A DNA stretch of 40,684 bases, from NCBI RefSeq assembly GCF_026013545.1, contig NZ_JAPDOG010000031.1, positions 1 to 40,684 on the forward strand. Direction: 5' to 3'. The notes beneath the pieces were generated by a model. The model had not been told where the DNA came from, made no database searches, and worked only from the letters and a program-made list of their open reading frames with translations. The position numbers were made by a program, and so were the translations under genes. Source of the stretch: Defluviimonas salinarum (GTDB taxonomy: Bacteria > Pseudomonadota > Alphaproteobacteria > Rhodobacterales > Rhodobacteraceae). Below, piece by piece: positions 18,842 through 40,684 of this stretch (its first letter is position 1; every line of letters starts with the position of its first letter).

Positions 18842-18936
18842 TTGGTCCTCCCCGACCGGTCCCGTGTCGCTAACGGACGCGATTATTGCCGATGGCTGAG
18901 ATTGTTGGGAAGCATGAACCGACATCCGGAGAGACC

Positions 18937-19860: not shown

Positions 19861-19871
19861 CCTCCGGCGCC

Positions 19872-20528
19872 ATGATCCTGTCGCGCGGCCGCCGCTACAT
19901 CTTCATCCACATCCCGAAGACCGGCGGCACGGCGCTGGCGCTCGCGCTCGAGAGCCGGGCGATGAAGGACGACGTGCTCGTGGGCGATACGCCGAAGGCG
20001 AAGCAGCGCCGGCGCCGGCTGAAGGGCGTCGAGACCGCCGGGCGGCTCTGGAAGCACGCGACGCTCGCCGATATCGAGGGGCTGGCGCGCCCGGAGGAGA
20101 TCGCCGCGTTCTTCGTCGTCACCCTCGTGCGCAATCCCTGGGACCGGGTCGTGAGCTATTACCACTGGCTGAAGGCCCAGAGCTTCGACCATCCCGCCGT
20201 GACGCTCGCGCGACGGCGCGACTTCAGCGGCTTCCTGAACGCTCCCGAAACGCGCGCGGCGCTCGCCGGCCACCCCTATGCGCGCTATGTCACGACCGGG
20301 GCGGGCCGCGAACGCTGCGACCTTTTCCTCCGGCTCGAACATCTCGACGAGGACATCCGCCCGTTCGAGGCGCATCTCGGCTTCCGCCTCGCGCCGCTGG
20401 CCGTCGCCAATTTGTCGGACCGCGCCCGGGACTGGCGCCGCTACTACAGCGACGCGGATGCCGGAACGGTCGCGGAGGTCTGCGCCGCCGACATCAGCCG
20501 CTTCGGCTACGCCTTCGACCCGGCCTGA
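19872..20528 (+). CDS. Sulfotransferase-family protein
   Basis: A 218-residue protein with the two PAPS-binding signatures of sulfotransferases: the 5'-phosphosulfate loop in FIHIPKTGGTALA near residue 12, and the 3'-phosphate motif LVRNPWDRVVSYYHW. It should transfer a sulfonate group from PAPS to an unknown acceptor, possibly a carbohydrate, as in the related sulfotransferase-2 group. There is no signal peptide or membrane helix, so it is cytoplasmic. It begins 11 bases after the DMT permease and may be co-transcribed with it. No glycan biosynthesis genes are nearby. Confidence 0.8.
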   Translation: MILSRGRRYIFIHIPKTGGTALALALESRAMKDDVLVGDTPKAKQRRRRLKGVETAGRLWKHATLADIEGLARPEEIAAFFVVTLVRNPWDRVVSYYHWLKAQSFDHPAVTLARRRDFSGFLNAPETRAALAGHPYARYVTTGAGRERCDLFLRLEHLDEDIRPFEAHLGFRLAPLAVANLSDRARDWRRYYSDADAGTVAEVCAADISRFGYAFDPA

Positions 20529-20532
20529 TCGT

Positions 20533-20590
20533 CTTCATTGCGGAATTACCCCACGGGGGTCCGGGGGTGTGAAACCCCCGGCTTCGCCCC
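20533..20590. repeat. Extragenic hairpin-plus-tail element, copy C (inverted)
   Basis: CCGGGGGT (20561-20568) pairs with ACCCCCGG (20574-20581) around a 5-base loop. On the minus strand the sequence continues CCCCCGTGGGGTAATTCCGC and CAATGAAG, closely matching copy B at 25157-25209. It lies between the convergent sulfotransferase and fadJ-like genes, where it can act as a terminator in either direction. Confidence 0.65.
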
Positions 20591-20591
20591 C

Positions 20592-22793: not shown

Positions 22794-23263
22794 GTTCTGT
22801 CTCCCTGGTAGGGCGTGCCATCCTTGTGGGTGAAGGTCGCCTTGCCGTCCTTCAACTCCACTTCCAGATCGACATCGGAGTAGGTGGCTTTTTCGGGGTT
22901 CATGCGGGAGCCGATCACGAGGAACCGTGCCTCTGCCCCGCTTCTGTTAATGAAATGATGCCCGTTCGGATCGCCGGCCGGGAAGGCCGCGCAGTCGCCC
23001 ACGCGCATCACGGTTTCGCCCGCGTCCTGCACAAGCGTGCATTCGCCTTCTGTCACCATCACGAACTCGTCCTCGCGGTGGTGCCAGTGGCGCAAAGACG
23101 AGAGGGCGCCGGGCGCGAGGATCACCTCGTTCGCGCCGAACTGCGTCAGCCCGCCGGCGTCACCGAGGCGGAGCGAGGAGCGCCCAGCCATCTGGCTGGC
23201 ATAGGGCTCGGGGTAGATGGAGCCGGTCTTGACCGGAACCGTCGTCTTGTCGATCACCGGCAT
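22790..23263 (-). CDS. Cupin-domain protein between fadA and fadJ
   Basis: A 157-residue single-domain cupin. Metal ligands are probably in LRHWHHREDEFVMVTEGE (His-x-His with Glu) and the second motif FPAGDPNGHHFIN. It carries no DNA-binding domain or signal peptide. It starts 3 bases after the thiolase stop and overlaps the fadJ-like start by four bases, so it is embedded in the beta-oxidation operon. A small-molecule binding, isomerase or sensor role is possible; none can be chosen from sequence. Confidence 0.8.
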   Translation of the reverse strand: MPVIDKTTVPVKTGSIYPEPYASQMAGRSSLRLGDAGGLTQFGANEVILAPGALSSLRHWHHREDEFVMVTEGECTLVQDAGETVMRVGDCAAFPAGDPNGHHFINRSGAEARFLVIGSRMNPEKATYSDVDLEVELKDGKATFTHKDGTPYQGDRT

Positions 23264-23266
23264 CGG

Positions 23267-24478
23267 TCAGACCCGCTCGATGATGGTGGCCGCGCCCATG
23301 CCGGAAGCGATGCAGAGCGTGGCAAGCCCGGTGCCTTTGCCTGTGCGTTCGAGTTCGTCGAGGAGCGTGCCGATGATGATCGCGCCGGTGGCGCCGAGGG
23401 GGTGGCCCATCGCGATCGAGCCGCCGTTGACGTTGACCTTGCCCGCATCCACGTCGAAGGCCTGCATGAAGCGCAGGACGACCGACGCGAAGGCCTCGTT
23501 CACCTCGAAAAGGTCGATGTCGGAGACCTTCATGCCCGAGTCCTTCAGGATCTTTTCCGTCACCGGCACCGGACCCGTGAGCATGATCGTCGGATCGGTG
23601 CCGATCTTCGCGGTGGCCCGGATCCGGGCGCGGGGTTTCAGCCCGTGCGCCGCGCCGAATTCCCTGTTGCCGATGAGGAGGGCCGCCGCGCCGTCGACGA
23701 TGCCGGAGGAGTTGCCGGCGTGGTGGATGTGGTTGATCCGCTCCAGATGGGGATATTTCATCAGAGCGATCTTGTCGAAGCCGGGCATGACCTCGCCCAT
23801 GTCCCGGAAGCTGGCCTTGAGGGCGCCGAGGGTCTGCATGTCGGTGCCGGGGCGCATGTATTCGTCATGGTCGAGAATGGGCAGGCCGTTCTGGTCGCGG
23901 ATCGTCACGATGGACTTCGCGAAACGCTTCTCCTCCCAGGCCTTCGCGGCGCGGTTCTGGGATTCCACGGCCAAGGCGTCAGCCTCGTCGCGGGTGAAGC
24001 CGTATTCGGTCGCGATGATGTCGGCCGAGATGCCCTGCGGCACGAAATAGGTCTTCATCGCGAGGCTCGGATCGACGGCGATCGCCGCCCCGTCCGAGCC
24101 CATCGCGACGCGGCCCATCATCTCGACCCCACCGGCGATATAGGCAGACCCGGCGCCGCCCTTCACCTGGTTGGCGGCGAGGTTCACCGCCTCCATGCCG
24201 GAGGCGCAGAAGCGGTTGATGGCGAGGCCGGGAATGCGCTCGTCGAGATCGGAGAGCAGGACGGCGGAGCGCGCGAGGCAGCCGCCCTGTTCGCCCACCT
24301 GCGTGACATTGCCCCAGATCACGTCCTCGACCGCGTGGCCGTCGAGCCCGTTGCGCTCCTTCACCGCGTTCAGGATCCTCGCCGAGAGCGCGACGGAGGT
24401 CACCTCGTGCAGGCTGCCATCGGCGCGGCCCTTGCCGCGGGGGCTGCGGACGGCGTCGTAGATAAAGGCTTCGGTCAT
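23267..24478 (-). CDS. fadA: Acetyl-CoA C-acyltransferase (beta-oxidation thiolase)
   Basis: A 403-residue thiolase that cleaves 3-ketoacyl-CoA with CoA. The nucleophile is in NRFCASGMEAVN, the catalytic His in GGSIAMGHPLGATGA and the second Cys in TLCIASGMGAA. The ATG at 24478 has GGAGG five bases upstream; the preceding in-frame codon at 24481 is TTG and not needed. It lies directly upstream of the cupin and fadJ-like genes and 12 bases after the glutathione-transferase-like gene, so all four are probably one transcript. Confidence 0.94.
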   Translation of the reverse strand: MTEAFIYDAVRSPRGKGRADGSLHEVTSVALSARILNAVKERNGLDGHAVEDVIWGNVTQVGEQGGCLARSAVLLSDLDERIPGLAINRFCASGMEAVNLAANQVKGGAGSAYIAGGVEMMGRVAMGSDGAAIAVDPSLAMKTYFVPQGISADIIATEYGFTRDEADALAVESQNRAAKAWEEKRFAKSIVTIRDQNGLPILDHDEYMRPGTDMQTLGALKASFRDMGEVMPGFDKIALMKYPHLERINHIHHAGNSSGIVDGAAALLIGNREFGAAHGLKPRARIRATAKIGTDPTIMLTGPVPVTEKILKDSGMKVSDIDLFEVNEAFASVVLRFMQAFDVDAGKVNVNGGSIAMGHPLGATGAIIIGTLLDELERTGKGTGLATLCIASGMGAATIIERV

Positions 24479-24490
24479 CAAGTCCTCCGG

Positions 24491-25129
24491 TCAGTTCGGA
24501 GCCCGGTCGGCGGGATTGCCGGGCATCAGGTCATAGGGGTGTTTCCAGCCGGGCAGGGCGGAGATGTTGCCCAGCCAGCGGTCGATTTCGGGCCAGTCCT
24601 TGGCGTCAAAGCCGAAGGGCTCGGGGTAATAGAGGTAGCCGCAGGCCGAGATGTCGGCGATGGTCGGGCACGCGCCGACGATCCAGTCGCGGGACTTCAG
24701 ATGGGTGTCGAGCGTCGCGTAGGCGTTTTTCAGGCGCGCCTGCAGGAAGTCGATGACCTCCTTCGGGCGCTTCGCCTCGGGCAGGAAATTCATCAGGAAC
24801 CGGGTCGTGCCGGCCTGCGAGGACATCTTGTGATTGTCCCAGAGCACCCAGCGCAGCACTTCTTCGGCCTCGCCTTCGGCGCCGCCGAACCTGCCGGTCC
24901 GGGTCACGGCGTGGTACATGATCGCGCCGGATTGGCTGATCACGGTGCCCTCCTCCTCGAAGACCGGCACCTCGCCCATCACGTTGAGCTTGCGGAACTC
25001 CGGGCTGCGGGTCGCGCCGTCGAAGAAATCGACGAAGACCGGTTCCCAGTCGTAGCCCGAAAGCTCGAGTGTCAGTGCCGCCTTGTAGGCGTTGCCGCTC
25101 TCGCCGAAGCAGTGGAGTTTCGCCGTCAT
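24491..25129 (-). CDS. Glutathione S-transferase-family protein
   Basis: A 212-residue protein of GST fold. The N-terminal thioredoxin-like domain starts KLHCFGESGNAYKAALTLEL and contains the cis-proline strand GEVPVFEEEG and the glutathione-binding SQSGAI. The all-helical C domain has the conserved DISACGYLYY region. The start at 25129 is the first with a plausible ribosome site (GGGAG); the upstream open frame is shadow. Its position as first gene of the thiolase-cupin-fadJ run suggests protection from, or processing of, reactive acyl intermediates, which is inference. Confidence 0.86.
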   Translation of the reverse strand: MTAKLHCFGESGNAYKAALTLELSGYDWEPVFVDFFDGATRSPEFRKLNVMGEVPVFEEEGTVISQSGAIMYHAVTRTGRFGGAEGEAEEVLRWVLWDNHKMSSQAGTTRFLMNFLPEAKRPKEVIDFLQARLKNAYATLDTHLKSRDWIVGACPTIADISACGYLYYPEPFGFDAKDWPEIDRWLGNISALPGWKHPYDLMPGNPADRAPN

Positions 25130-25156
25130 GCCGCGCTCCCTTGGCTGGCGGCGGGA

Positions 25157-25209
25157 GTGGGGGCTTCGCGCCCCCACACCCCCGCGGGGTATTTCCTCAA
25201 TGAAGAAGA
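25157..25209. repeat. Extragenic hairpin-plus-tail element, copy B
   Basis: GTGGGGGC (25157-25164) pairs with GCCCCCAC (25170-25177) around a 5-base loop, followed by ACCCCCGCGGGGTATTTCC and CAATGAAGAAG. It matches copy C at 20533-20590 (reverse strand) and, more loosely, copy A. It lies in the 270-bp gap between the GST-like gene and the 70-residue gene. Nothing else was recognised in that gap. Confidence 0.65.
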
Positions 25210-25399
25210 ACGGCTTGTTAACCAGAATCGGGCGACCCTTTCCGTGCGGTACAGGCTGGGGAGCCGATGACCGCCAATGGAGAAGTCGCCCCGGTCTTCC
25301 CGAGAAGCACCCGCATCGGTCGGGCCGGCGGGGAAGCCGGGGCGCGCCTGCTGCTTCTTCATTGTCCAAATACCCATTCCACCCTCTCCATCCCGCGCC

Positions 25400-25612
25400 T
25401 CACGCCGTCCGCTCATCAAGCCCGGCCTTGAAGAGCCGCACACGGTGGCCGAGCGTTTCGGGGTCCGTCACGCTGGCGAAATGCTCGAAGACGAAGGTCA
25501 GCGCCTCGTCGGTCGTCAGCCCGGTTTCCGCCGCGAAGCGGGTGAGCCTGCGGTAGGCGTCGTTGGTCATCGCGGCGGGGAAGCGGCGGGTCAGGCGCAG
25601 GCGTTTCGGCAT
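25400..25612 (-). CDS. 70-residue protein of unknown function
   Basis: A small basic-to-amphipathic protein (MPKRLRLTRRFPAAMTNDAY ... LFKAGLDERTA), predicted largely helical, without cysteines or membrane segment. The N-terminal arginine-rich strand followed by helices loosely recalls small ribbon-helix-helix proteins, but the match is weak. It sits 71 bases downstream of the acyl-CoA dehydrogenase in the same direction, across a strong hairpin. The frame is open further upstream through the dehydrogenase gene; the ATG at 25612 is the reasonable start. Confidence 0.6.
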   Translation of the reverse strand: MPKRLRLTRRFPAAMTNDAYRRLTRFAAETGLTTDEALTFVFEHFASVTDPETLGHRVRLFKAGLDERTA

Positions 25613-25631
25613 TCTCGTCTCCGGCGTGGGA

Positions 25632-25654
25632 GGCGCCCGCCCCCGGCGGGCGCC
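25632..25654. other. 9-bp GC hairpin between the acyl-CoA dehydrogenase and the 70-residue gene
   Basis: GGCGCCCGC (25632-25640) pairs with GCGGGCGCC (25646-25654) around a 5-base loop. No T-run follows on the minus strand, so it may be an mRNA-stabilising or attenuating hairpin rather than a simple terminator. Confidence 0.45.
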
Positions 25655-25683
25655 CGGTCGTGCACGAGGTCTTCCGCGAAAGC

Positions 25684-27459
25684 TTAGAACGCCTCCGCCG
25701 GCAGGCTCATCACAGGTTCGGCACCCGACCGGATCCGCGCGAGGTGGGTCGCGGTCAGCGGCAGCTGGCGCGCCATGTAGTAGCGCCCGGTCGCGAGCTT
25801 CGTCTCGTAGAAGGCGCGGTCGGCGGCGGCGTTCGCAAGCGCGGCCTGCGCCGCCTTCGCGGAGCGGGCCCACATCAGGCCGAGGCAGACATGGCCGAAG
25901 AGATGCATGAAGTCGTAGGAGCCGGACAGCGCGGCATTGGGGTTCTTCATGCCCTCGGCCATGAAATACATGCCCGCGGCCTGGAGATCCTTGGAGGCGG
26001 CCTTCAGGGGTTCGAGGAAGTCGGCGTTCAGCGCCTCGTCGCCCTCGTTCTCCTTGATGAAGCCCTTCACAATCTCGAAGAAGGCCATCACCGGCTTGCC
26101 GCCGTCGGCCGCGAGCTTGCGGCCGACGAGATCGAGCGCCTGCACGCCGTTCGCGCCTTCGTAGATCATGGTGATCCGGGCGTCGCGGGCGAACTGCGAC
26201 ATGCCCTGTTCCTCGATATAGCCGTGGCCGCCGAAGATCTGCTGGGCGTTCACCGCGGCCTCGAAGCCCTTGTCGGTCAAAAAGCCCTTGATCACCGGCG
26301 TGAGGAGCGAGATCAGCCCCTCGGCTGCCGCGTCGTCGGAGCGGTGGGCGCGGTCGAGAAGCGCTGCGCCCCAGAGGACGAAGGCGCGCGCGCCCTCGAG
26401 GAAGCTCTTCTGGTCCATCAGGTTGCGGCGGATGTCGGGATGGACGATCAGCGGGTCGGCCGGACCTGAGGGGTTCTCGGCCCCGGTCACGGCACGGCCT
26501 TGGAGCCGCTCCTTGGCATAGGTGACGGCGGCCTGGTAGGCGGGCTCGGCCACCGCGTAGCCCTGGATGCCGACCGCGAGCCGCGCCTCGTTCATCATCG
26601 TGAACATCGCGGACATGCCGCGGTGCAGCTCGCCGAGGAGATAGCCCACGGCACCGTCGTAGTTCATCACGCAGGTGGCGTTGCCGTGGATGCCCATCTT
26701 CTCCTCGATCTTGCCGACCGAGACGCCGTTGCGCCGCCCGAGCGAGCCGTCCTCGTGCACAAGGAACTTCGGCACGATGAAGAGCGAGATGCCGCGCGTG
26801 CCCTCGCCGCCGCCCGGCGCCTTGGCGAGGACGAGATGCACGACGTTCTCGGCCATGTCGTGGTCGCCCGCCGAGATGAAGATCTTCTGGCCGGTGATCC
26901 GGTAGCTGCCGTCATCCTGCGGCTCGGCCTTCGTGCGGATCTGGCCGAGATCGGTGCCGCAATGCGGCTCGGTCAGGTTCATAGTGCCGGTCCAGTCGAG
27001 GCTGATCATCTTCGGCGCATAGGTCGCCTTCTGCGCCTCGGTCCCGTGGGCGAGGATCGTGCCGACCGCGCCGTGGGTCAGGCCCTGGTACATGTTGAAG
27101 GCCATATTGGCGGAGACGAAGATCTCGCCGACGGCCGTGTACATGATCGTTGGCAGGTTCTGCCCGCCATAGGCCTCGGGCAGGTCGAGCCCGTTCCAGC
27201 CGCCGGCCTTCATCGCCTCGAACGCCGCCTTGAAGCCCTCGGGCGTGTAGACGACCCCGTTTTCCAGCCGGCAGCCCTCGCGGTCGCCGCTCGCGTTCAG
27301 GGGCGCGAGCACGTCGCGGGCGAGCTTGCCCGCCTCTTCGAGGATCGCCGAGGTGAAGTCCGGCTCGAGCTCGCCGTAGCCCGGCACGTCGCTCGACGAG
27401 ACCTCCAGAACCTCGTTCAGGACGAATTGCATGTCGCGGGTCGGCGCCGTGTAGCTCAT
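25684..27459 (-). CDS. Acyl-CoA dehydrogenase, long (about 590-residue) type
   Basis: A 591-residue FAD enzyme introducing the alpha-beta double bond in acyl-CoA. Landmarks are [19 protein letters not shown] (FAD/substrate loop), [30 protein letters not shown] and the catalytic glutamate region [20 protein letters not shown]-terminal extra helical domain distinguishes this group from the roughly 380-residue short/medium enzymes. Some members of the long group are the methylmercaptopropionyl-CoA dehydrogenases (DmdC); whether this one uses that substrate is not decidable here. It starts 21 bases after the MerR gene, suggesting joint control. Confidence 0.9.
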
Positions 27460-31997: not shown

Positions 31998-32062
31998 TGA
32001 CCCAAGACCGGGATTCCTCCAGCCCCGGCTCTGATGGCGTGACCGCTCTCCCTTGTGGGTCA
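31998..32062. other. Nested inverted repeats at the edge of the mobile region
   Basis: TGACCCA (31998-32004) pairs with TGGGTCA (32056-32062), and inside it CCGGG (32008-32012) pairs with CCCGG (32024-32028). No coding frame of merit lies here. The position, right after the MATE stop, suggests it is an insertion-sequence end or the 5' part of the larger structured region that follows. Confidence 0.35.
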
Positions 32063-32188
32063 TTGCAGGCCCACCTTGGAACACCGATGGTGTCGGGGGG
32101 CGGTGTTACTACACTTGGGCACACCTTCCGCCCCGTTATCGCTGTGAAGACCGCCGCGCCGGGGGGTACTCTGGATTCGGAGAGGGGG

Positions 32189-32358
32189 TGCTTGGCGCCT
32201 GCTTGACCGGGTAGTGCCAAGCAGCGGGGAGGCGAAATTCAGGCGCCGGTTTCCCGCGGGCAGGGGTGCCCGGCCTCATCCCCAAGATTCTGATCGGGCA
32301 CCCCTGTCAGTTTCTCGCAGCGAACCGGGAACTGCGAGAGGTGCCCGCTCACGCGGGC
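32189..32358. ncRNA. Candidate structured non-coding RNA with five stems
   Basis: Between the MATE gene and the IS5 remnant, about 440 bp (31989-32431) hold no credible gene. Within them are TGCTTGGC/GCCAAGCA (32189-32196/32216-32223), which is mutually exclusive with GGCGCCTG/CAGGCGCC (32194-32201/32240-32247). Further on are a perfect 12-bp stem CAGGGGTGCCCG with 32295-32306, TCTCGCAG/CTGCGAGA (32313-32320/32332-32339), and GCCCGC/GCGGGC (32343-32348/32353-32358). The alternative pairing of the first two stems recalls a switching RNA or a mobile-element guide RNA. The strand and class are unknown. Confidence 0.4.
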
Positions 32359-32498
32359 TTGTCGAACGTCAATGGCGTGGTCGATCCTGTGGTCATCACG
32401 ATGACTTGCAGTCGATAATTCTGATGTAATGGGCGTTGTTGTAGAACTCGGCGCCGGAAGGATTCACGTTGCGAATCCGGTAGGTTAAGACGTTCGGC

Positions 32499-32942
32499 AT
32501 GAACAAGCCCGAACCTGCCCGCTACCGCACGACGAACTGGAAGTCCTACAATGAAGCGCTGAGGCGTCGCGGATTATTGCTGATCTGGCTCGACAAGGAC
32601 ATGGTGTGGCTTGCCGCCAGGGCCGGGTGTTCAGGCCGGCCACCGGTATATTCCGATGCCGCGATACAGTTCTGCCTGATGGTGAAGGTGCTGTTCGGCC
32701 TACCGCTTCGGCAGACGACGGGGATGGTGTCCAGCATCCTCCAGATGGCCGGGCTGGATTGGCCGGTCCCCGACTTCTCGACCCTGAGCCGCAGGCAGAA
32801 GAACATCACCGTCGGTATCTCGAGCCGCCGGTCGCCGGGTCCGCTGAACCTGTTGGTAGACAGCACAGGGATCAAGTTCCTGGGCGATGGCGAATGGCTG
32901 GCCCGCAAGCATGGCACCCATCGCAGACGCCAATACCGCAAG
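32499..32942 (+). pseudogene. IS5-family transposase, N-terminal part (interrupted)
   Basis: 148 codons from ATG 32499, beginning MNKPEPARYRTTNWKSYNEA and running through the first catalytic Asp region LLVDSTGIKFLGDGEW to RRQYRK. The frame then enters the inserted element and stops at 33011 after unrelated residues. Joined to 34331-34819 it gives a 310-residue DDE transposase of normal length with all three catalytic positions, so the break is recent or has been tolerated without further decay. No active transposase can be made from this copy. Confidence 0.88.
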
Positions 32943-32949
32943 ATGGGAT

Positions 32950-32960
32950 GGTTGCCGCCC
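32950..32960 (+). repeat. IS1111-type left subterminal inverted repeat
   Basis: GGTTGCCGCCC, perfectly complementary to 34313-34323, seven bases from the left junction. Confidence 0.85.
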
Positions 32961-33026
32961 ACCCCTGACGGCATCGCAATGTGCCAAGGTCGTGGTGTCG
33001 AGGCCACGTAGCGGAGAGGACGGCAA

Positions 33027-34055
33027 ATGAAGGATACGATGATCGGGGTAGATCTGGCAAAGAATGTGTTCCAGCTCCACGGAGCGTCGATGGCTGGCGA
33101 GTTGCGCTTTCGCAAGAAGCTGTCGCGGGCACAGTTCCGCAAGTTCATGGCGGATCATCTCCCGGCCATTGTGGTCATGGAAGCATCCGGCAGCGCCCAT
33201 TACTGGGCGCGTGAGATGATCGGCCTGGGGCATGAGGTGAAAATGATCGCACCGCAGTATGTGCGCCCCTTCGTGAAGCGCCAAAAGAATGACGCCGCCG
33301 ATGCCGAAGCGATCGTGATCGCCGCGCAGAGACCGGAAATGCGTTTTGTAGAGCCGAAGTCCGAAGAGCAGCAGGCGATGGCCGTGCTGTTCCGGGCTCG
33401 CGAACGCCTGGTCCACCAGCGCACGGATTTGGTGAATGCCATCCGCTCGATCTGCTATGAATACGGCCACGTCATTCCCGTGGGTATCCATCAGGTCAAG
33501 CGTATTGCGGCGATCCTGGATGAACCGCATTGCGACCTGCCCGGGCTGGTGCAGGACGAATGCCGGGACCTCCTCGCAGAAATCGCCGCCAAGACAGTTC
33601 AGATAGACGCCAAGACCCGGAAGGCCAAGGAACTCATGGCATCTGCCGATGTCGCAAAGCAGCTTCAGACGATGCCGGGTGTCGGACCGATGGTCGCATT
33701 GGCGATCACAGCGTTTGTTGCCGACATCAAAAGCTTTCGAAGGGGGCGCGACTTTGCCGCGTGGCTGGGGCTCGTGCCACGGCAACACTCTTCGGGCGGC
33801 AAGGTGCGGCTTGGCAGGATCTCAAAGGCAGGCCAAAGCGATATCCGGCGCCTGTTGATCATTGGCGCAATGTCACGTCTGAACTGGATGGGGCGGCAAT
33901 CCATCCCCGAGGGATCGTGGCTGTCGCGCTTGCAGGCTCGCAAACCGAGGATGCTGGTCGCGATCGCGCTTGCGAACAAGATGGCCCGCGCGATCTGGGC
34001 CATGCTGACGAAAGGGGAGAACTATAGGGATCCGGCGCTGGCATCGGTTGCGTGA
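33027..34055 (+). CDS. IS110-family (IS1111-type) transposase
   Basis: A 342-residue DEDD/serine transposase. The RuvC-like N-terminal domain has D9 (MIGVDLAKNVFQ), E52 (VVMEASGS), D89 and D92 (RQKNDAADAEA). A coiled region follows, then the C-terminal Tnp_20 domain with TMPGVGPMVALAI and the conserved serine motif RQHSSGGKVRLG (Ser255/256). The length is full and no frameshift is seen, so it may be active. The ATG at 33027 lies 84 bases from the left end of the element. These enzymes act with an element-encoded guide RNA, expected here in the right end. Confidence 0.93.
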   Translation: MKDTMIGVDLAKNVFQLHGASMAGELRFRKKLSRAQFRKFMADHLPAIVVMEASGSAHYWAREMIGLGHEVKMIAPQYVRPFVKRQKNDAADAEAIVIAAQRPEMRFVEPKSEEQQAMAVLFRARERLVHQRTDLVNAIRSICYEYGHVIPVGIHQVKRIAAILDEPHCDLPGLVQDECRDLLAEIAAKTVQIDAKTRKAKELMASADVAKQLQTMPGVGPMVALAITAFVADIKSFRRGRDFAAWLGLVPRQHSSGGKVRLGRISKAGQSDIRRLLIIGAMSRLNWMGRQSIPEGSWLSRLQARKPRMLVAIALANKMARAIWAMLTKGENYRDPALASVA

Positions 34056-34312
34056 TCATCTCATCGCAAGGAACAGCCACGCGCCGGTGAAGGGGGGTAC
34101 GAAGTCGACGACCAGAATGGGCAAACGATCGAAGCGATCCGGATCGGGAAAACCAGCAGATGGACCGGAGCCTCAAAGCTCGCGCGCAAGATTTTGGACC
34201 TGCTCCGCAGATCACCATCCCGGCCAGCGGCAATGAAGGGCCGCACATACAGGCCTGACAGAAGACCGCACTTCGAGCACCTGCCTACTGGATCAGAAAC
34301 GTCTTGCACCGC
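34056..34312 (+). ncRNA. Candidate guide RNA (seekRNA/bridge RNA) region of the IS1111-type element
   Basis: This 257-bp stretch downstream of the transposase has no credible gene and ends at the right subterminal repeat. IS1111-type elements place their guide RNA gene in the right non-coding end, so it is the expected location. The segments GATCCGGATCGGGA (34140-34153) and AGATCACCATCCCGG (34210-34224) resemble the target's right flank AGATCCATCTCGGGA (34330-34344), which could reflect guide matching. Fold and boundaries were not computed. Confidence 0.45.
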
Positions 34313-34323
34313 GGGCGGCAACC
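34313..34323 (+). repeat. IS1111-type right subterminal inverted repeat
   Basis: GGGCGGCAACC, perfectly complementary to 32950-32960, three bases from the right junction at 34326. Confidence 0.85.
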
Positions 34324-34330
34324 ACAGAAG

Positions 34331-34819
34331 ATCCATCTCGGGATCAACGAGCAGACGTTGGAGGTTCGTGCCGTCGAGATCACCGGGAGCCATGTCGGCG
34401 ATGCGCCGGTGCTGCCTGACCTGCTCGGCCAGATCCCGGCGGACCAAGAGATCGGTAGCGTCACCGCAGACGGTGCCTACGACACCCGCAAGTGCCACGA
34501 TGCGATTGCTGACCGCGGCGCTCAGGCCGTCATCCCACCACGGAAGAATGCCAAGCCGTGGAAGACTGTCACCGCCGGGGCGGTCGCAAGAAACGAAGCA
34601 TTGCGCGCCTCGAAATGCCTCGGCCGCGCGCTCTGGCGACGATGGAGCGGATACCACCGCCGGAGCCGCGTCGAAACGAAGATGCACTGCGTGAAACTGC
34701 TGGGCCAGCGGCTCATGGCGCGGGACTTTGACCGCCAGGTTGCGGAGCTCCACGTCCGCATCGCCATCCTGAACCGCTACACTGCGCTCGGCATACCTGT
34801 CACTGAAGCCGAGGGATGA
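34331..34819 (+). pseudogene. IS5-family transposase, C-terminal part (interrupted)
   Basis: 162 codons continuing the frame of 32499-32942: IHLGINEQTLEVRAVEITGS, then VTADGAYDTRKCHDA with the second catalytic Asp, and GYHRRSRVETKMHCVK with the catalytic Glu, ending TEAEG. Apart from the insertion no frameshift or stop is seen. Any start codon within this fragment would be fortuitous. Confidence 0.88.
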
Positions 34820-34873
34820 GTCTGCCCGGGGATAGGGGAATCTCGGCCATCAGCCGATTTGTGCAACAGAGCC

Positions 34874-34969
34874 GCTACCGCCCGCCCGCGCCGGAAAGCT
34901 TCCTTCCAATGGACCAGAGGCCGATGATGCACCAACAATCAACACGGACCACTCGATGGGGGCAGTCCA
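34874..34969 (-). mobile_element. End fragment of another insertion sequence
   Basis: Read on the minus strand from 34969, the sequence begins TGGACTGCCCCCATCGAGTG, resembling an IS3-family terminal repeat, and is cut at its other side by the right end of the IS5-family element. It abuts the broken IS3 orfA exactly where that gene's similarity stops, so this element probably inserted into that gene. Its family assignment is tentative. Confidence 0.45.
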
Positions 34970-35079
34970 ACGCAGATCTGCCGAACCGCGTCGCCGATCG
35001 TCATTCTTTGCCCCTGCAGCACCTCGACCTGCCGCAGCTTCAACACGATGTCCTCGGGCTTGTCTCGCTTTCCTGCCAT
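34970..35079 (-). pseudogene. IS3-family orfA, 5' fragment
   Basis: From ATG 35079 the minus strand reads MAGKRDKPEDIVLKLRQVEV then LQGQRMTIGDAVRQI, the start of an IS3-family OrfA helix-turn-helix protein. Similarity ends after 37 residues at the junction with the neighbouring IS end. A GGAGG site precedes the ATG. The element's own left end appears to lie at 35144, with TGATCCTCCCCCACCGAAG on the minus strand. No OrfB is present. Confidence 0.75.
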
Positions 35080-35144
35080 CTTTGGTCCTCCTCGACGGGA
35101 CAAATCTATCCCAGTTGGCGAGCCACTTCGGTGGGGGAGGATCA

Positions 35145-35559
35145 AGGCCGAGATGATCCTGATGCACTGGCATGAGGCCGAGGGATTTCAGTCAAAAGAC
35201 GAGCCAGACCCCGGTGCATGATTGCGGCCCCTCGGCCAAACCGCTCCCCATCTCTCGGTAAATCGGATGACCCGCGGCTGGCGACAGGAACGGCGGATTG
35301 CGGTCTTTCGCTGCGGAAGCGACGAATGTCCGGTCTGGTCCCGTCCTCGCCAGCCAGACATGGGGGAATACTATGTCTGCTGTGATGCGGAGACCGGCTG
35401 TTCTTTACGCAGCACCACGTCGTTTTGCCCGCAAGACAAGTGACGAAAGCGCAATTTGACGGTTGGCAATGGAGCCTCCGAATAGGTAGAAATTTGTGAC
35501 CTATATCGTTGGGCAGCGGGAGTACTCGGGAAATGTCGATATGTAGAGGCTCTTGAGGA
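35145..35559. other. Non-coding stretch between the IS remnants and the AsnC-type gene
   Basis: About 415 bp without a credible gene. Short open frames lack family similarity. The last 120 bp are AT-richer than the flanks and must contain the promoter of the AsnC-type gene; no clear -35/-10 pair was assigned. Confidence 0.4.
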
Positions 35560-36051
35560 ATGAAACCGACTGCCCTCGACGCCGCCGACATTCGTATCCT
35601 TTGCGCGTTGCAGCAGAATGGTCAGCTCAGTAAATCGAAGCTGGCGGAGTTGGTAGGGCTTTCCTCTACTCCTTGCTGGGCGCGCTTTGCCCGGCTGAAG
35701 AAGGCGGGCCTGATCCGCGGGTACCGTGCGGACCTTGCGCTGGGTAAGATAGTCGATGTCTCCAAGGTCGTCGTAACTGTTTCTCTGAAAAGCCACCGCA
35801 AGACGGATTTTGACCGCTTCGAGGCGCATATCCGCAGCCTTAACGCGGTCACCGACTGCGTCGCGACTGGCGGTGGGATGGACTACGTGATGACCGTTGT
35901 CACAACCAGCCTTTCGGCCTTCCAGACGCTGATGGAAGACATGCTGTCGGCGGAACTCGGGATAGACCGTTACATGACCTATTTCGTGACACGCGAGGTC
36001 AAATCGGTGCAGCCGGACCTTGCCCAGCTGTTGGCCCAACCAGCGAAGTGA
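35560..36051 (+). CDS. Lrp/AsnC-family transcriptional regulator
   Basis: A 163-residue regulator: N-terminal winged helix (LDAADIRILCALQQNGQLSK, then LAELVGLSSTPCWARFARLK) and a C-terminal ligand-binding RAM domain with the characteristic G-x-x-D element (VATGGGMDYVMTVVT). Members respond to amino acids or related small acids and bind repeated sites as octamers. The ATG at 35560 has a GAGG site. It precedes the demethylase-CoA ligase operon in the same direction; a pair of 14-bp direct repeats lies in the following gap. It is therefore the likely local regulator. Confidence 0.92.
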   Translation: MKPTALDAADIRILCALQQNGQLSKSKLAELVGLSSTPCWARFARLKKAGLIRGYRADLALGKIVDVSKVVVTVSLKSHRKTDFDRFEAHIRSLNAVTDCVATGGGMDYVMTVVTTSLSAFQTLMEDMLSAELGIDRYMTYFVTREVKSVQPDLAQLLAQPAK

Positions 36052-36080
36052 CCCGAGAACGCGCTCAACGGACGCGCAAA

Positions 36081-36125
36081 GTCCGAACGGTCTGAGTTGA
36101 ACATCAATTTGGTCCGTTCAGTCTG
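36081..36125 (+). promoter_or_regulatory. Pair of 14-bp direct repeats upstream of the demethylase gene
   Basis: GTCCGAACGGTCTG (36081-36094) and GTCCGTTCAGTCTG (36112-36125) match at 11 of 14 positions, with a 31-base period of about three helical turns. GAACGG (36085-36090) and CCGTTC (36114-36119) also form an inverted repeat. The location between the AsnC-type gene and the operon it probably controls makes this a good operator candidate. Confidence 0.5.
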
Positions 36126-36233
36126 CTCGGTATGAATCTTCAGTCCGATCTTGCAAGCTGATTGCCCCTAAAACCACGGCCAGTTCGACAAGATCTCGTG
36201 GTCCGTGAGGACCCGCAGGAAAGGGCAATCAGA

Positions 36234-37376
36234 ATGGCAAAATCAGACGATTTCGGTTTCGGAACCCAGATCCGGAAATCCCCGTATTTCGACGCGACGG
36301 TCCGATGGGGCGCAAAGGGCTTCTCGGTCTACAACCACATGTACATCCCGCGCGACTTCGGCGATCCGGAACAGAATTTCTGGAACCTGATCAACGACGC
36401 GATCCTGTGCGATGTGGCAGTCGAGCGTCAGGTCGAGATCACCGGCCCTGATGCCGCGAGGTTCGTTCAGATGCTGACCCCGCGCGATCTTTCGAAGATG
36501 GCGGTCGGGCAATGCAAGTATGTTCTCATCACCAATGCCGAAGGCGGCATCCTGAATGACCCGATCCTGCTGCGCCTGGCGGAGAACCACTTCTGGATCT
36601 CGCTTGCGGACAGCGACATCCTGCTCTGGGCACAGGGCGTCGCCGTGCATTCGGGCATGGATGTGACGATCCGCGAACCGGATGTATCGCCGCTCCAGCT
36701 TCAAGGGCCGAAATCCGGCGAGGTGATGAAGGCGCTCTTCGGCGACAGCATCATGGACCTCAAGTATTACTGGCTGCGCGAAGTGGAGCTGGACGGCATT
36801 CCGCTGATCGTGTCGCGCACCGGCTGGTCGAGCGAACTGGGATATGAGCTTTACCTGCAGGACGGGTCGCGCGGCGACGAGCTATGGGAAAAGATTATGG
36901 CGGCGGGCAAGCCTTTCGGCCTGAAACCCGGCCATACCTCGTCGGTCCGCCGCATCGAGGGCGGCATGCTGTCCTATCACGCCGACGCCGACATCAACAC
37001 CAATCCCTACGAGCTTGGGCTTGGTCGCCTCGTAAGCCTCGACATGGAGGCCGAGTTCATCGGCAAGGCCGCGCTGTGCCGGATTAAGGAAGAGGGCGTC
37101 TGCCGCAAGCAGGTCGGGCTGGTCATCGACGGGTCGCCACTCAAAGGGCCGAACACCACCTTCTGGACCGTCAACAAGGGCGGTGCGTTCGTTGGCAAGG
37201 TCACCTCGGCCGTCTATTCGCCGCGGCTGGAACAGAACATCGCCCTGGCCATGGTCTCTTTGGATGCTGCGCAGATCGGCGCGGAAGTCGAGGTCGTGAC
37301 CGCGTCCGGCCCGACGCGTGCGAGGATCGTGGAGCGCCCGTTCTACGATCCGCAAAAAAGCCTTGCCGCTGCCTGA
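36234..37376 (+). CDS. GcvT-fold, DmdA-like tetrahydrofolate-dependent demethylase
   Basis: A 380-residue GcvT/DmdA-type protein, expected to move a methyl group from an onium or methylated substrate to tetrahydrofolate. Strong DmdA-like blocks are SVYNHMYIP (31-39), VERQVEITGPDAARFVQMLT (63-82), GGILNDP (104-110, the DmdA-type N-D where T-proteins have D-D), ISLADSDILLW, and the C-terminal barrel with TNPYELGLG and FIGKAAL. It differs from DmdA as I remember it in SRTGWSSELGYELYL, closer to other GcvT relatives, so I do not name it dmdA. The ATG at 36234 follows AGGAAAGGG; 24 codons further upstream are also open. It is first of four tightly spaced genes. Confidence 0.8.
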   Translation: MAKSDDFGFGTQIRKSPYFDATVRWGAKGFSVYNHMYIPRDFGDPEQNFWNLINDAILCDVAVERQVEITGPDAARFVQMLTPRDLSKMAVGQCKYVLITNAEGGILNDPILLRLAENHFWISLADSDILLWAQGVAVHSGMDVTIREPDVSPLQLQGPKSGEVMKALFGDSIMDLKYYWLREVELDGIPLIVSRTGWSSELGYELYLQDGSRGDELWEKIMAAGKPFGLKPGHTSSVRRIEGGMLSYHADADINTNPYELGLGRLVSLDMEAEFIGKAALCRIKEEGVCRKQVGLVIDGSPLKGPNTTFWTVNKGGAFVGKVTSAVYSPRLEQNIALAMVSLDAAQIGAEVEVVTASGPTRARIVERPFYDPQKSLAAA

Positions 37377-37405
37377 TTGTCATCAACCAGACTGGAAAAG
37401 TAGCC

Positions 37406-37855
37406 ATGTCCGACCTTTCGATCGAACTGCATTGGCACCGTACCGAAGCGGGCTTCGAGCTGGGCAAGTATTCTGCCGAGCATGTCGTGCGCTACAACAA
37501 CAGCTATGAAGTGCAAGCGGATGCCGCCCCGGATTGGGGCGGCAAACCGGAAAACACCAACCCCGAACAAGCGCTCGCCTCGGCATTGTCTAGCTGCCAC
37601 ATGATGACCTTCCTGGCACTGGCCGCGAAGGCGAAGTGGCCGGTGGCCAGCTACCACGATCACGCAGTTGCACATCTCGGCAAGAACCCCAAAGGACAGA
37701 TGTCAGTCACGCGTATCGACCTGCACCCGGTGGTGCGTTTCGATACCGGCTTCGCGGTCGACAACAAGACGTTGGATGAAATGCAGGACCGCGCCCATCG
37801 CTACTGCTTCATCGCCAACACGCTCGCCGACAGCGTCGAGATCAACGTCCTTTAG
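37406..37855 (+). CDS. OsmC-family protein
   Basis: A 149-residue OsmC/Ohr-type protein that reduces organic hydroperoxides through two cysteines, C64 (ASALSSCHMMTFLALAAK) and C134 (HRYCFIANT), both present. It also keeps the conserved NPEQALASALSSC helix. It starts 29 bases after the demethylase stop and ends 22 bases before the crotonase gene, so it is part of the operon. Its presence suggests that the pathway generates peroxides or reactive sulfur/thiol species; this is inference. Detoxification by other thiol chemistry is an alternative. Confidence 0.87.
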   Translation: MSDLSIELHWHRTEAGFELGKYSAEHVVRYNNSYEVQADAAPDWGGKPENTNPEQALASALSSCHMMTFLALAAKAKWPVASYHDHAVAHLGKNPKGQMSVTRIDLHPVVRFDTGFAVDNKTLDEMQDRAHRYCFIANTLADSVEINVL

Positions 37856-37877
37856 GCACCGGTTAGGGAGAAAACCT

Positions 37878-38678
37878 GTGCAAGAGAGCGATATCCTGCT
37901 GCGCGATCTGGATGACGACGGCATTATGCGCCTGACGCTGAACGACGCGCGGCGCCGCAACGCCCTGTCCGAAGCGATGCTGGGCGAGCTGGGCGCAACC
38001 ATTGCCGAGGCAGGGGCAAACCCCTCTGTACGGGTCGTCATCCTAGCCGCACACGGAGCAGCCTTTTGCGCGGGGCATGACCTCAAGGAAATGACCGCCG
38101 GCCGGTCCGCCCCGGATCGCGGCAAAGCCTACTTCACCAAGGTCATGGCGCTGTGTTCGGGCGTCATGCAATCGATTGTGAATTGCCCGAAACCCGTCAT
38201 CGCCGAGGTCACGGGGATCGCGACCGCAGCGGGCTGCCAGTTGGTCGCCAGCTGCGATCTCGCCATTGCCGCGGACACCGCGCAATTCAGCACGCCGGGT
38301 GTCCATATCGGGTTGTTCTGCTCCACGCCGATGGTGGCGCTGTCGCGGAACGTGGCGGGCAAACACGCGATGGAGATGCTGCTGACGGGGGACATGACAT
38401 CGGCTGCCCGCGCGGCCGAGATTGGGCTGGTCAACCGGACTGTCGCCCCCGATGCGTTGAGGGAGGCGACCATCGAGATGGCCCGCAAGATCGCGTCCAA
38501 ATCCAGCATGACGCTCGCCACAGGAAAACGTGCGTTCTACGTTCAACGCGAGCTGCAGCTGGCGCAGGCCTATGACTACGCCTCCGGCGTGATGGTCGAA
38601 AATATGCTCGCCCGCGATGCGGAAGAGGGCATCGGAGCGTTCATCGAAAAACGCGCGCCGCAATGGCAGGATAAATGA
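37878..38678 (+). CDS. Non-canonical crotonase (ECHDC3-like), lacking both usual catalytic glutamates
   Basis: A 266-residue crotonase-fold protein. The oxyanion-hole elements are kept (FCAGHDLKEM and GIATAAGCQLVASCDLA). At the positions of the two hydratase glutamates it has Q121 (in AGCQL) and G141 (in STPGVHIGLFCS). It closely resembles the eukaryotic ECHDC3 group (GHDLKE, AAGCQLVASCD, GLFCSTP), whose reaction I do not know. An enoyl-CoA hydratase or DmdD role is therefore unlikely. The start is GTG 37878, preceded by AGGGAG; the frame is open far upstream through osmC but unrelated. Its end overlaps the acyl-CoA synthetase start by four bases. Confidence 0.84.
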   Translation: MQESDILLRDLDDDGIMRLTLNDARRRNALSEAMLGELGATIAEAGANPSVRVVILAAHGAAFCAGHDLKEMTAGRSAPDRGKAYFTKVMALCSGVMQSIVNCPKPVIAEVTGIATAAGCQLVASCDLAIAADTAQFSTPGVHIGLFCSTPMVALSRNVAGKHAMEMLLTGDMTSAARAAEIGLVNRTVAPDALREATIEMARKIASKSSMTLATGKRAFYVQRELQLAQAYDYASGVMVENMLARDAEEGIGAFIEKRAPQWQDK

Positions 38679-40318
38679 GGCTTATGGTGGAAAATCCCTA
38701 CAATACCGGTCTGGATCGCAACCCGGCGAACTACCAGCCGCTTACACCGCTGACCTTTCTCGAACGCGCTGCCAGCGTCTTCCCCGACCACACCGCGATT
38801 GTTCACGGCACGCTGCGTCGCAACTATGCGGAGTTCTATGCGCGTTCGCGGCGGCTTGCCTCGGCACTGACCAAGAACGGGGTCCGGCGCGGCGACACGG
38901 TGTCGGTGCTGTTGCCCAACACACCGGCGATGCTCGAATGCCATTTTGGCGTTCCGATGTGCGGCGCGGTCCTGCATTCAATCAACACCCGGCTGGACGC
39001 GGCAATCATCGCGTTCCAGCTCGATCACGCCATGTCCAAGCTCGTGATCGTGGACCGCGAGTTCATGCCGCTGATGCAGGACGCTCTTGCACTTGCCACG
39101 GTGAAGCCTGTCCTGATCCAATACGACGATCCGGAATACGACGGTGCACGGACACAGTTCGAGGCCGCCGACTACGAGGTGTTCCTGACCCGTGGCAACC
39201 CGGATTTCGCCTGGCTGATGCCCGAGGACGAGTGGGACGCCATCTCGATCAACTACACCTCCGGAACCACCGGCGACCCCAAGGGCGTGGTGTCGCATCA
39301 CCGGGGCGCCTACCTGCTGGCGCAGGGCAATGCGCTGACGACTTCGATGCAGAAACATGCGGTGTATCTGTGGACTCTGCCGATGTTTCACTGCAACGGC
39401 TGGTGCTTCCCCTGGACGATGTCGGCCATCATCGGCACCCATGTCTGCCTGCGGCAGGTGCGTGCTGAGCCGATCTGGAATGCCCTCGCCGATGAAGGCG
39501 TGACCCACCTCTGCGGCGCCCCCATCGTGATGTCGCTGCTGATCTCGGCGCCGGATACGGTCAAACGCAGTCTTGACCGTACCGTGCAATTCTTCACGGC
39601 CGCCGCGCCCCCCCCTGAAAAGCTTCTTGCCGACATGCGGGATGCGGGCTTTGACGTGACCCATCTTTACGGGCTAACGGAAACCTATGGCCCGGCGGTC
39701 GTCAACGACTGGCACGAAAACTGGTCCGGGCTGCCCCGCGCCGAGCAGGCCACGCTGAAATCCCGTCAGGGCGTGCGCTATCTGGCGCTGGAACAGCTGG
39801 ACGTTCTAGACCCCGAGACGATGTGCCCCGTGCCGCGCGATGGCAAGACCATGGGAGAGGTCATGTTCCGCGGCAATGTCGTCATGAAGGGCTATTTCCG
39901 CAATCCCAAGGCGACGCAGGAGGCCTTCGCCAGCGGCTGGTTCCATTCGGGCGATCTGGGGGTCATGCATCCCGACGGCTACATCCAGCTCAAGGACAGG
40001 TCAAAGGACGTCATCATCTCGGGCGGTGAGAATATTTCCTCGATCGAAGTCGAAGAGGCACTGTACCGGCATCCTGCCGTCGCGGTCGCGGCCGTCGTTG
40101 CAATGCCCGATGAAAAATGGGGCGAAACGCCCTGTGCATTTGTCGAACTTGCAGCAGGTCAGAAGGCGGATGAGACAATGCTTCGCGCGTGGTGCCGCGA
40201 GCACCTTGCACCCTACAAGGTTCCCGGAAAGTTCGTGTTCGTGCCTGTTCCAAGAACGTCCACCGGAAAGATCCAGAAGTTCATCCTGCGCGAGCAAGCA
40301 AGGGCTATCGCCACCTAA
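38675..40318 (+). CDS. AMP-forming acyl-CoA synthetase of the accessory operon
   Basis: A 547-residue acid-CoA ligase with adenylation motif NYTSGTTGDPKGVVSHHRG (193-211), MFHCNGWCFPW, YGLTETYG and the C-terminal catalytic lysine motif RTSTGKIQKFILRE. It is a paralogue of the enzyme at 17216-18841, alike over its whole length but differing in the substrate-pocket region around 290-340. The ATG at 38675 overlaps the crotonase stop; ATG 38684 (MVENPYNTG) aligns better with the paralogue and could be the true start. It probably activates the carboxylate left after demethylation, or the substrate itself. No terminator is obvious. Confidence 0.87.
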   Translation: MRLMVENPYNTGLDRNPANYQPLTPLTFLERAASVFPDHTAIVHGTLRRNYAEFYARSRRLASALTKNGVRRGDTVSVLLPNTPAMLECHFGVPMCGAVLHSINTRLDAAIIAFQLDHAMSKLVIVDREFMPLMQDALALATVKPVLIQYDDPEYDGARTQFEAADYEVFLTRGNPDFAWLMPEDEWDAISINYTSGTTGDPKGVVSHHRGAYLLAQGNALTTSMQKHAVYLWTLPMFHCNGWCFPWTMSAIIGTHVCLRQVRAEPIWNALADEGVTHLCGAPIVMSLLISAPDTVKRSLDRTVQFFTAAAPPPEKLLADMRDAGFDVTHLYGLTETYGPAVVNDWHENWSGLPRAEQATLKSRQGVRYLALEQLDVLDPETMCPVPRDGKTMGEVMFRGNVVMKGYFRNPKATQEAFASGWFHSGDLGVMHPDGYIQLKDRSKDVIISGGENISSIEVEEALYRHPAVAVAAVVAMPDEKWGETPCAFVELAAGQKADETMLRAWCREHLAPYKVPGKFVFVPVPRTSTGKIQKFILREQARAIAT

Positions 40319-40684
40319 CATCGGAGCGGACACGCGGCTTCACTCTTTGTTCGCCTTCCGACCCTTTGATCCACTCGACACTCTGCGCTCGCTGCGAATG
40401 ACCGCATTCTCGAACTCCGCCGCACGATTCCGACTCTCAATCGAAGGTCTGCAAAGGTGAAGAACCTCCAACGCGGGCCGACCCGGCACCAGGCTGCACC
40501 CTCGCGCCGCGGCCCGCATCAGAAATCCTTCACCATCCTATCTAATCTCGCGGAGTGCGCGAATGGCGTGAGAACGGCGGAGCAATAGTCGGCCACGGTA
40601 GCGGCGGGATGATCCGGCTGCGGGCGGCGTAAAAGTCGGCCACTTTTTGCCCTTTCTGGCGACAGGGAGGGTGGGAGGATTTTC
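40319..40684 (+). mobile_element. Non-coding tail holding the probable left end of an IS21-type element
   Basis: These 366 bp hold no credible gene. AGTCGGCCAC occurs at 40587-40596 and again at 40634-40643, a 47-base period. Repeated short motifs near the end are typical of IS21-family elements, in which several copies bind the transposase. The window ends 41 bases later in a purine-rich GGGAGGGTGGGAGG stretch that may be an upstream translation signal. The left boundary is not defined. Confidence 0.4.

Follow-up and report, generated by a model that had tools for sequence, protein, structure and literature searches.

A mobile five-gene operon of Defluviimonas salinarum with a DmdA-like demethylase and an ECHDC3-type crotonase, a candidate second route for sulfonium acid demethylation

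The window analysed here is the entire contig C25 (NZ_JAPDOG010000031.1, 40,684 bases), part of the 5.0 Mb draft genome of Defluviimonas salinarum. Close to its end, five genes form an operon encoding an Lrp/AsnC-family regulator, a GcvT-fold protein, an OsmC-family protein, an ECHDC3-type crotonase and an AMP-forming acid-coenzyme A (CoA) ligase. This gene set is conserved, its GcvT-fold protein belongs to a clade separate from the dimethylsulfoniopropionate (DMSP) demethylase DmdA, its crotonase lacks the catalytic glutamates of DmdD, and in other genomes it is physically linked to methanethiol oxidase and one-carbon (C1) genes. With moderate confidence, we favour the reading that the operon encodes a second pathway, running alongside dmdABCD but separate from it, by which a dimethylsulfonio carboxylic acid is demethylated and demethiolated.

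The conserved gene set and its proteins

Relatives of the GcvT-fold protein were taken as the best 80 of 551 matches from a scan of named genomes (83-93% identical), and a second panel comprised 295 genomes of the window's family, in which matches of at least 65% identity define clade A. The panel and the named loci partly overlap (for example, L042 is the contig of L224 and L082 that of L226), and counts are not summed across the sets. The complete order AsnC-GcvT-OsmC-crotonase-ligase is kept in 49 of the 80 retrieved loci, or in 43 of the 71 whose flanks are long enough; the remaining 31 hold AsnC and GcvT alone (8), GcvT alone (3) or mixed arrangements (20). Such recurrence puts the set far beyond chance, and an order unique to this genome or artefactual is ruled out. 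Beyond these genes, no neighbour is widespread: the next cluster, defined at 45% identity and 60% length, is present in five loci, and its three scanned members are methylenetetrahydrofolate reductases (MTHFR).

Clade A occurs in 49 of the 295 family genomes, and several observations indicate that the set is mobile among marine bacteria. Plasmid copies with 80-90% identity are found in six records, five from Phaeobacter inhibens and one from Loktanella; two of the P. inhibens plasmids were inspected, and one of them is typed as conjugative. The GcvT copies of Halomonadaceae and Fodinicurvata nest among those of Rhodobacterales in the tree, and the single same-genus genome sampled (G010) gave no GcvT match at E 1e-60. 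Furthermore, the G+C content of the operon is 60.9%, compared with 67.8% in bases 1-32000. These data support the suggestion of a first-pass annotation of this DNA that the set had been acquired. In genome G187, the GcvT, OsmC, crotonase and ligase copies are all broken together, as in a decayed operon.

The GcvT-fold protein carries the GCV_T (148 bits) and GCV_T_C (72 bits) domains, corresponding to the folate-binding and C-terminal barrel domains of DmdA, and its top PDB sequence match is 3tfh (E 2e-76), deposited as a GcvT-like aminomethyltransferase and named as DmdA in PMC7487153 (cited, like all papers given here by PMC number, from excerpts). Against the DmdA equivalog model PRK12486 it scores 369.8 bits, under the NCBIfam cut-off of 410 bits; across the 295 genomes, the over-cut-off hits of this model (125 genomes) score at least 419.9 bits and the next among the listed hits 386.4. 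It is 38% identical to the plasmid-borne DmdA of P. inhibens. The GcvT tree (84 rows, quick method) has Shimodaira-Hasegawa-like approximate likelihood ratio test (SH-aLRT) support only and is read unrooted, because the outgroup rows L003 and L123 are badly aligned and lie on very long branches. In this tree, 22 DmdA rows, including a part of the Pelagibacter DmdA, the P. inhibens DmdA and the canonical DmdA of D. salinarum itself (L161, 581.6 bits), form one group (SH-aLRT 100), the protein of the window stands outside in its own clade, and further clades branch between the two. The sub-cut-off score and the separate clade rule out its membership of DmdA, so that the departure from DmdA proposed in the first-pass annotation holds. 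Of the two results named there as refuting, placement within a DmdA clade and a gene order confined to this genome, neither was obtained. Many invariant columns are nevertheless common to clade A and DmdA, and 'non-DmdA' homologue clades are described in PMC7487153. Two other demethylase models also remain under cut-off, those of trimethylamine N-oxide (TMAO) demethylase (231 bits) and LigM (63 bits). The DMSP-specific residue 'W171' of PMC7487153 could, by our own count, be Pelagibacter W197; clade A keeps this tryptophan, the consensus of the 22 DmdA rows is tyrosine, and nothing is drawn from it.

Two further GcvT-fold groups came to light. On a Marivivens plasmid (L185, 7977-13136), a DmdA-like clade, C2, which branches between clade A and DmdA and scores a sub-cut-off 360.5 bits, is encoded with a ligase, an acyl-CoA dehydrogenase and dmdD, and is probably a further DMSP demethylase clade. 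Genome G000 holds a large GcvT-fold set, with 28 GCV_T matches, of which 25 are over cut-off; 19 of all 28 lie in frames 790-1103 residues long.

The crotonase passes the PRK08139 cut-off (400 against 313 bits) and contains the blocks of this family. Its Gln121 and Gly141 occupy the columns of the catalytic glutamates of DmdD, both of which are missing; these two residues are shared by 97% or more of the 74 family rows in the alignment, and H67, E71, C120 and C148 show the same level of conservation. The PDB entry 2vx2, named ECHDC3 and presumably the human ECHDC3 protein, matches with 227 bits, carries the same residues at the glutamate columns and shares the GxATAAGCQL and GLFCSTP blocks. 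With both catalytic glutamates replaced, a normal enoyl-CoA hydratase is ruled out, as the first-pass annotation had already argued. The genome of D. salinarum contains 16 crotonase matches, two of them of the ECHDC3 type, and the second over-cut-off PRK08139 copy, on contig C88, is presumed to be housekeeping; relative to known ECHDC3/PRK08139 crotonases (3myb, 2vx2), the operon protein differs as a recruited operon copy. In DmdD, the E121A substitution abolishes activity and methanethiol release, and DmdD frees no methanethiol from methylmercaptopropionyl-CoA (MMPA-CoA) (PMC3660561, excerpt). Since E121A is inactive, a crotonase devoid of these glutamates must, if it releases methanethiol, use other groups. 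An ECHDC3-type crotonase gene on pSymB of Sinorhizobium meliloti (L188, 5833-9505) lies near genes for a CoA-binding protein and an O-acetylhomoserine aminocarboxypropyltransferase, possibly another methanethiol-related context.

The ligase scores 912 bits with PRK08162 (cut-off 677) and is 48% identical to the ligase of the P. inhibens dmd cluster, which also passes this cut-off; the family is common to the operon and to the dmd clusters of P. inhibens and Marivivens. The OsmC protein matches 2d7v in the PDB (E 8.7e-25) and its C64 and C134 are conserved in 97% or more of the 71 rows aligned, so that, as judged from sequence, it has the two-cysteine OsmC domain of OsmC/Ohr peroxiredoxins. Its scores against the OsmC_like_Se domain model and against four NCBIfam models of OsmC/Ohr peroxidases stay under the respective cut-offs.

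Linkage to methanethiol oxidase, sulfur and C1 genes

SBP56 is a methanethiol oxidase (PMC5739008, PMC10936201), and its gene is no more than 5 kb from the clade-A GcvT gene in 10 of 49 genomes, compared with 2 of 125 for canonical DmdA (Fisher 6e-5). The 49 clade-A genomes hold 41 SBP56 genes; SBP56 is present anywhere in the genome in 33 of 49 of them versus 60 of the 246 others (Fisher 1.6e-8) and, among genomes devoid of DmdA, in 7 of 16 with clade A versus 12 of 154 without it. Since the genomes are related, these P values overstate independence. In D. salinarum, SBP56 is outside the five-gene operon, on another contig (C36). The GGDC[ST] block, by which these proteins resemble the cluster 1 methanethiol oxidases of Rhodobacteraceae (PMC10936201), was found in SBP56 of all 15 loci checked near clade-A GcvT, two of which repeat a genome.

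Some loci bring these genes together on one strand. L128 and L132, whose members are 65-67% identical, encode SBP56, a 2Fe-2S ferredoxin, CoA_binding_2, rhodanese, crotonase, ligase and GcvT; subsets of this cluster occur in L129, L130 and L134, and none in L131, the sister of L129. The run of L223 comprises SBP56, ferredoxin, CoA_binding, rhodanese, a metallo-beta-lactamase protein and AsnC, followed by GcvT, crotonase, ligase, an AraC gene and MetV-MetF, the OsmC frame of the same genome being found in L107. SBP56 further accompanies clade-A GcvT in L231, from another family, and in L232, a one-strand cluster with no ferredoxin called. A relative of the L223 metallo-beta-lactamase protein, in L200, scores 355.7 bits with a sulfur transferase/dioxygenase model, under its cut-off of 625, and matches the ETHE1 persulfide dioxygenase 4chl (E 7.6e-20), which is not its top PDB match. 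Sulfane sulfur is a product of the oxidase (PMC10936201, excerpt), which would suit the rhodanese and dioxygenase neighbours.

The reciprocal comparison started from SBP56. Of 38 stretches fetched around this gene, 31 (L193-L222, L230) were picked on high SBP56 score alone, a set that excludes five SBP56 genes previously found beside clade-A GcvT; the others were picked for their proximity to GcvT or DmdA, or carry the distant SBP56 type. A crotonase with the ECHDC3 signature lies within 6 kb in seven of the 31 (L193, L200, L212, L216, L217, L221, L230) and other crotonases in three (L199, L206, L219), although this type makes up just two of the 16 crotonase matches in D. salinarum. A ligase adjoins the signature crotonase in L200, L212, L217 and L221. 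In the genomes of L200 and L217, clade A lies elsewhere. Those of L212, L216, L221 and L230 gave no match to clade A; DmdA is present in three of these four genomes, and two of the loci (L212, L221) have the ligase. Since the crotonases near SBP56 span at least three tree branches, though some forks are poorly supported, their linkage has probably not been inherited as a single block. CoA_binding_2 accompanies high-scoring SBP56 in 27 of the 31 stretches, usually with the 2Fe-2S ferredoxin; a word search of the excerpted text of both methanethiol oxidase papers (PMC5739008, PMC10936201) gave no match for ferredoxin. In genome G066 (L228), canonical DmdA and SBP56 are separated by 73 bases.

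C1 genes are also found near GcvT: MetV and MetF in L010, L012, L063, L067, L084, L137 and L223, and PurU and FolD in L010, L013, L063, L067 and L183, all four lying downstream of GcvT in the Halomonadaceae loci L063 and L067. Such a set would oxidise 5-methyl-tetrahydrofolate (5-methyl-THF) to formate, which argues for a methyl rather than a methylene product and fits the methyl recovery on tetrahydrofolate suggested in the first-pass annotation. LigM-type O-demethylase loci include C1 genes as well. The operon shares with them its fold class and, in L063 and L067, MTHFR and formyl-THF deformylase neighbours; it differs from them by its 63 bits to the LigM model and by the acid-CoA chemistry that follows. 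A 57% relative on a Lichenihabitans plasmid (L183, 3892-11182) is encoded with MTHFR, PurU, FolD, an aminotransferase, a flavin adenine dinucleotide (FAD) oxidoreductase and ATP-binding cassette (ABC) transporters, and its substrate is perhaps a methylated, amino-acid-like compound.

Genomic setting and regulator

Coordinates and domain scans confirm the layout read in the first-pass annotation, with five same-strand genes of the families named, gaps of 29 bases (GcvT-OsmC) and 22 bases (OsmC-crotonase) and a 4-base overlap (ATGA) between crotonase and ligase (Table 1). An alternative GcvT start, TTG, exists at 36162; of the 52 retrieved relatives aligned from residue 1, 51 have ATG as the corresponding codon. 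At the gathering threshold, no RNA element of Rfam matched in 32000-40684. Of the insertion sequence (IS) flanking claimed earlier, the upstream side stands, with three transposase genes. The PF13737 and PF01609 parts (DDE type), in the same orientation, flank an IS110-type transposase, and 32499-34819 looks as if one transposable element had been entered by another. On the downstream side, 366 bases of contig follow the ligase before the contig end, so that an IS is not demonstrated there. The opposite strand of the contig carries a beta-oxidation-like gene set (17216-27459).

Table 1. Features of the window around and upstream of the operon
Feature	Position	Strand	Remarks
Acyl-CoA ligase	17216-18976	-	54% identical to operon ligase
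FadB-type protein	20592-22793	-	
Acyl-CoA dehydrogenase	25684-27459	-	41% identical to P. inhibens DmdC; 8 kb before operon
PF13737 transposase part	32499-33011		Upstream of operon; domain scan
IS110-type transposase	33027-34055		Upstream of operon; domain scan
PF01609 transposase part	34304-34819		Upstream of operon; domain scan
Lrp/AsnC-family regulator, likely local regulator of operon	35560-36051	+	PF13404 (HTH_AsnC-type) and PF01037 (AsnC_trans_reg) over cut-off
First operator-like box, near-palindrome GTCCGAACGGTC	36078-36093		Position weight matrix (PWM) 16.9 (+), 19.9 (-, at 36080)
Second operator-like box TTGGTCCGTTCAGTCT	36109-36124	+	PWM 23.6; 31 bases from first box
GcvT-fold demethylase, DmdA-like clade, proposed sulfonium:THF methyltransferase	36234-37376	+	ATG start; 380 residues
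OsmC-family protein, proposed thiol/peroxide protection	37406-37855	+	PF02566 over cut-off, 62.5 bits
ECHDC3-type crotonase, proposed methanethiol-releasing step	37878-38678	+	GTG start; ECH_1; PRK08139
AMP-forming acid-CoA ligase, proposed methylthio-acid CoA ligase	38675-40318	+	AMP-binding; PRK08162

The AsnC gene is directly upstream of GcvT in 74 of the 80 retrieved loci. In 74 of 75 AsnC-GcvT spacers the best site scored above the best of 75 shuffled spacers, with a PWM trained on the same 75; in an untrained check, the top 7-mer occurred in 30 of the 75 spacers versus at most 8 in 20 shuffled sets. None of 77 stretches taken before AsnC held a PWM site over 7. Across the draft genome, the second box is the sole zero-mismatch place of TTGGTCCGTTCRGTC. 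A wider AsnC regulon in this genome was rejected, as the pattern search with up to two mismatches gave 20 places versus 16 for the reversed control, and the single one-mismatch place (C21:21479) is inside open reading frames, with no second box over 11 in its 12 kb stretch. Since no convincing second place for the boxes is present, the regulator looks local, and it would regulate the operon via the paired GTCCGTTCGGTC-like boxes.

Proposed pathway and its alternatives

In the route that we favour, the GcvT-fold protein would transfer one methyl group from sulfur to tetrahydrofolate, so that 5-methyl-THF and a methylthio acid are formed, as suggested by its relationship to DmdA and by the C1 neighbours. 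The ligase, whose family also serves dmd clusters, would make the CoA thioester, from which the crotonase could free methanethiol without hydratase glutamates and with no need of an acyl-CoA dehydrogenase (DmdC) step. SBP56, co-encoded in some genomes, would then oxidise methanethiol, rhodanese and the sulfur-dioxygenase-like protein would handle sulfane sulfur, and OsmC may guard against thiol or peroxide by-products, this being the weakest step. The direction of the route and its substrate class are, like the crotonase reaction and the role of OsmC, inferred. The operon resembles dmdABCD in its GcvT fold, the 3tfh match, the invariant columns, the ligase family of P. inhibens and the proposed methanethiol product, but it differs from it by a sub-cut-off GcvT of a separate clade, its own AsnC and OsmC genes, a set without DmdC and a Glu-less crotonase.

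Several points weigh against this route. OsmC, crotonase and ligase are all absent after GcvT in 11 of the 80 loci; two of these 11 are short of flank, and in two more, L063 and L067, a divergent trio lies nearby. Canonical DmdA is also present in 33 of the 49 clade-A genomes, and 39 of the 49 have no SBP56 within 5 kb, 16 of the 49 having none at E 1e-60. Among 14 SBP56 stretches from other families, 13 of which carry the more distant SBP56 type, no ECHDC3-signature crotonase was found and clade-A GcvT in one (L231); for SBP56 less than 60% identical to that of L129, a signature crotonase lies near 4 of 25 genes, always that of the clade-A operon itself, and other crotonases near 4 of 25 (L042 and L224 being the same contig). 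In L216, an acyl-CoA dehydrogenase gene ends directly upstream of the SBP56-crotonase cluster, which suggests a dehydrogenation step there, and the DmdC-like dehydrogenase on the contig of the operon (41%, 25684-27459) could act in trans. Three Rhodobacteraceae oxidases formed no H2O2 (PMC10936201, excerpt), contrary to a peroxide role for OsmC, and three other bacteria, including a Halomonas, gave no volatiles from dimethylsulfonioacetate (DMSA) (PMC7221440, excerpt).

Some of these points would suit a redundant DMSP route, in which a divergent DMSP demethylase and the ligase lead to MMPA-CoA, DmdC and DmdD/AcuH encoded elsewhere finish the pathway and the Glu-less crotonase is accessory. The ligase family common to the operon and dmd clusters, the arrangement of clade C2 on the Marivivens plasmid, the DmdC-like gene on the same contig, the L216 dehydrogenase adjoining crotonase and SBP56, and the 16 of 49 clade-A genomes with no DmdA over cut-off are all consistent with it. 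However, it is the ECHDC3-type crotonase, not DmdC or DmdD, that travels with the ligase and near methanethiol oxidase; no DmdC match (E 1e-12, half length) was found in any clade-A locus, the DmdD matches listed in clade-A loci (30 of 38) are paralogues with 25-31% identity, for the most part the crotonase of the operon itself, and 33 of the 49 genomes already encode DmdA. We consider this explanation unlikely. A methylated ammonium or methoxy acid, with the sulfur genes as incidental neighbours, appears less probable still: the GcvT fold does serve N- and O-demethylating enzymes, as reflected by the sub-cut-off TMAO demethylase and LigM scores, and the Lichenihabitans relative lies near an aminotransferase and an FAD oxidoreductase, but SBP56, rhodanese and the sulfur-dioxygenase-like protein recur beside GcvT, SBP56 more commonly than beside DmdA, and the top PDB sequence match is DmdA. 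These neighbours favour a sulfonium, thereby narrowing the choice of sulfonium, ammonium or methoxy acid offered by the first-pass annotation. It is very improbable that OsmC, crotonase and ligase form a separate fatty-acid or stress module merely co-transferred with GcvT. Several loci do hold GcvT without the trio, the Paracoccus seriniphilus crotonase and ligase genes follow a LysR gene apart from GcvT, and the trio of L063 and L067 (37-53% identical) lies some kilobases from it; yet the association was re-formed as crotonase-ligase-GcvT in L128, L132 and L232, and the four genes of G187 were broken jointly.

The substrate of the favoured sulfonium route may be DMSP, DMSA or a relative. Ruegeria pomeroyi frees methanethiol from DMSA, which is not recognised by DmdA, and an additional pathway was proposed, its genes being unnamed in the excerpted text (PMC7221440); the operon is a candidate for this pathway. 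Gonyol gave no volatiles in three strains (PMC7221440, excerpt). The human-cell enzyme making methanethiol from 3-methylthiopropionate has been called an unknown C-S lyase (PMC6302742). As a speculative extension, which we regard as doubtful, the ECHDC3 family, human ECHDC3 included, could be the missing C-S lyase that frees methanethiol directly from a methylthioacyl-CoA (3-methylthiopropionyl-CoA) upstream of SBP56/SELENBP1; the operon would then be a bacterial counterpart, supplied by a new sulfonium demethylase, and possibly the DMSA pathway. In listings and excerpts from the open-licence PMC literature, we recognised no description of the operon and found no paper joining ECHDC3 with methanethiol.

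DMSP demethylation in sea water is counted via dmdA (PMC13360808). A mobile second clade with a ligase and crotonase of its own, present in 49 of 295 family genomes, 16 of these 49 having no DmdA over cut-off, could be missed or miscounted in such counts. Furthermore, the operon offers testable chemistry for the poorly understood ECHDC3 crotonases.

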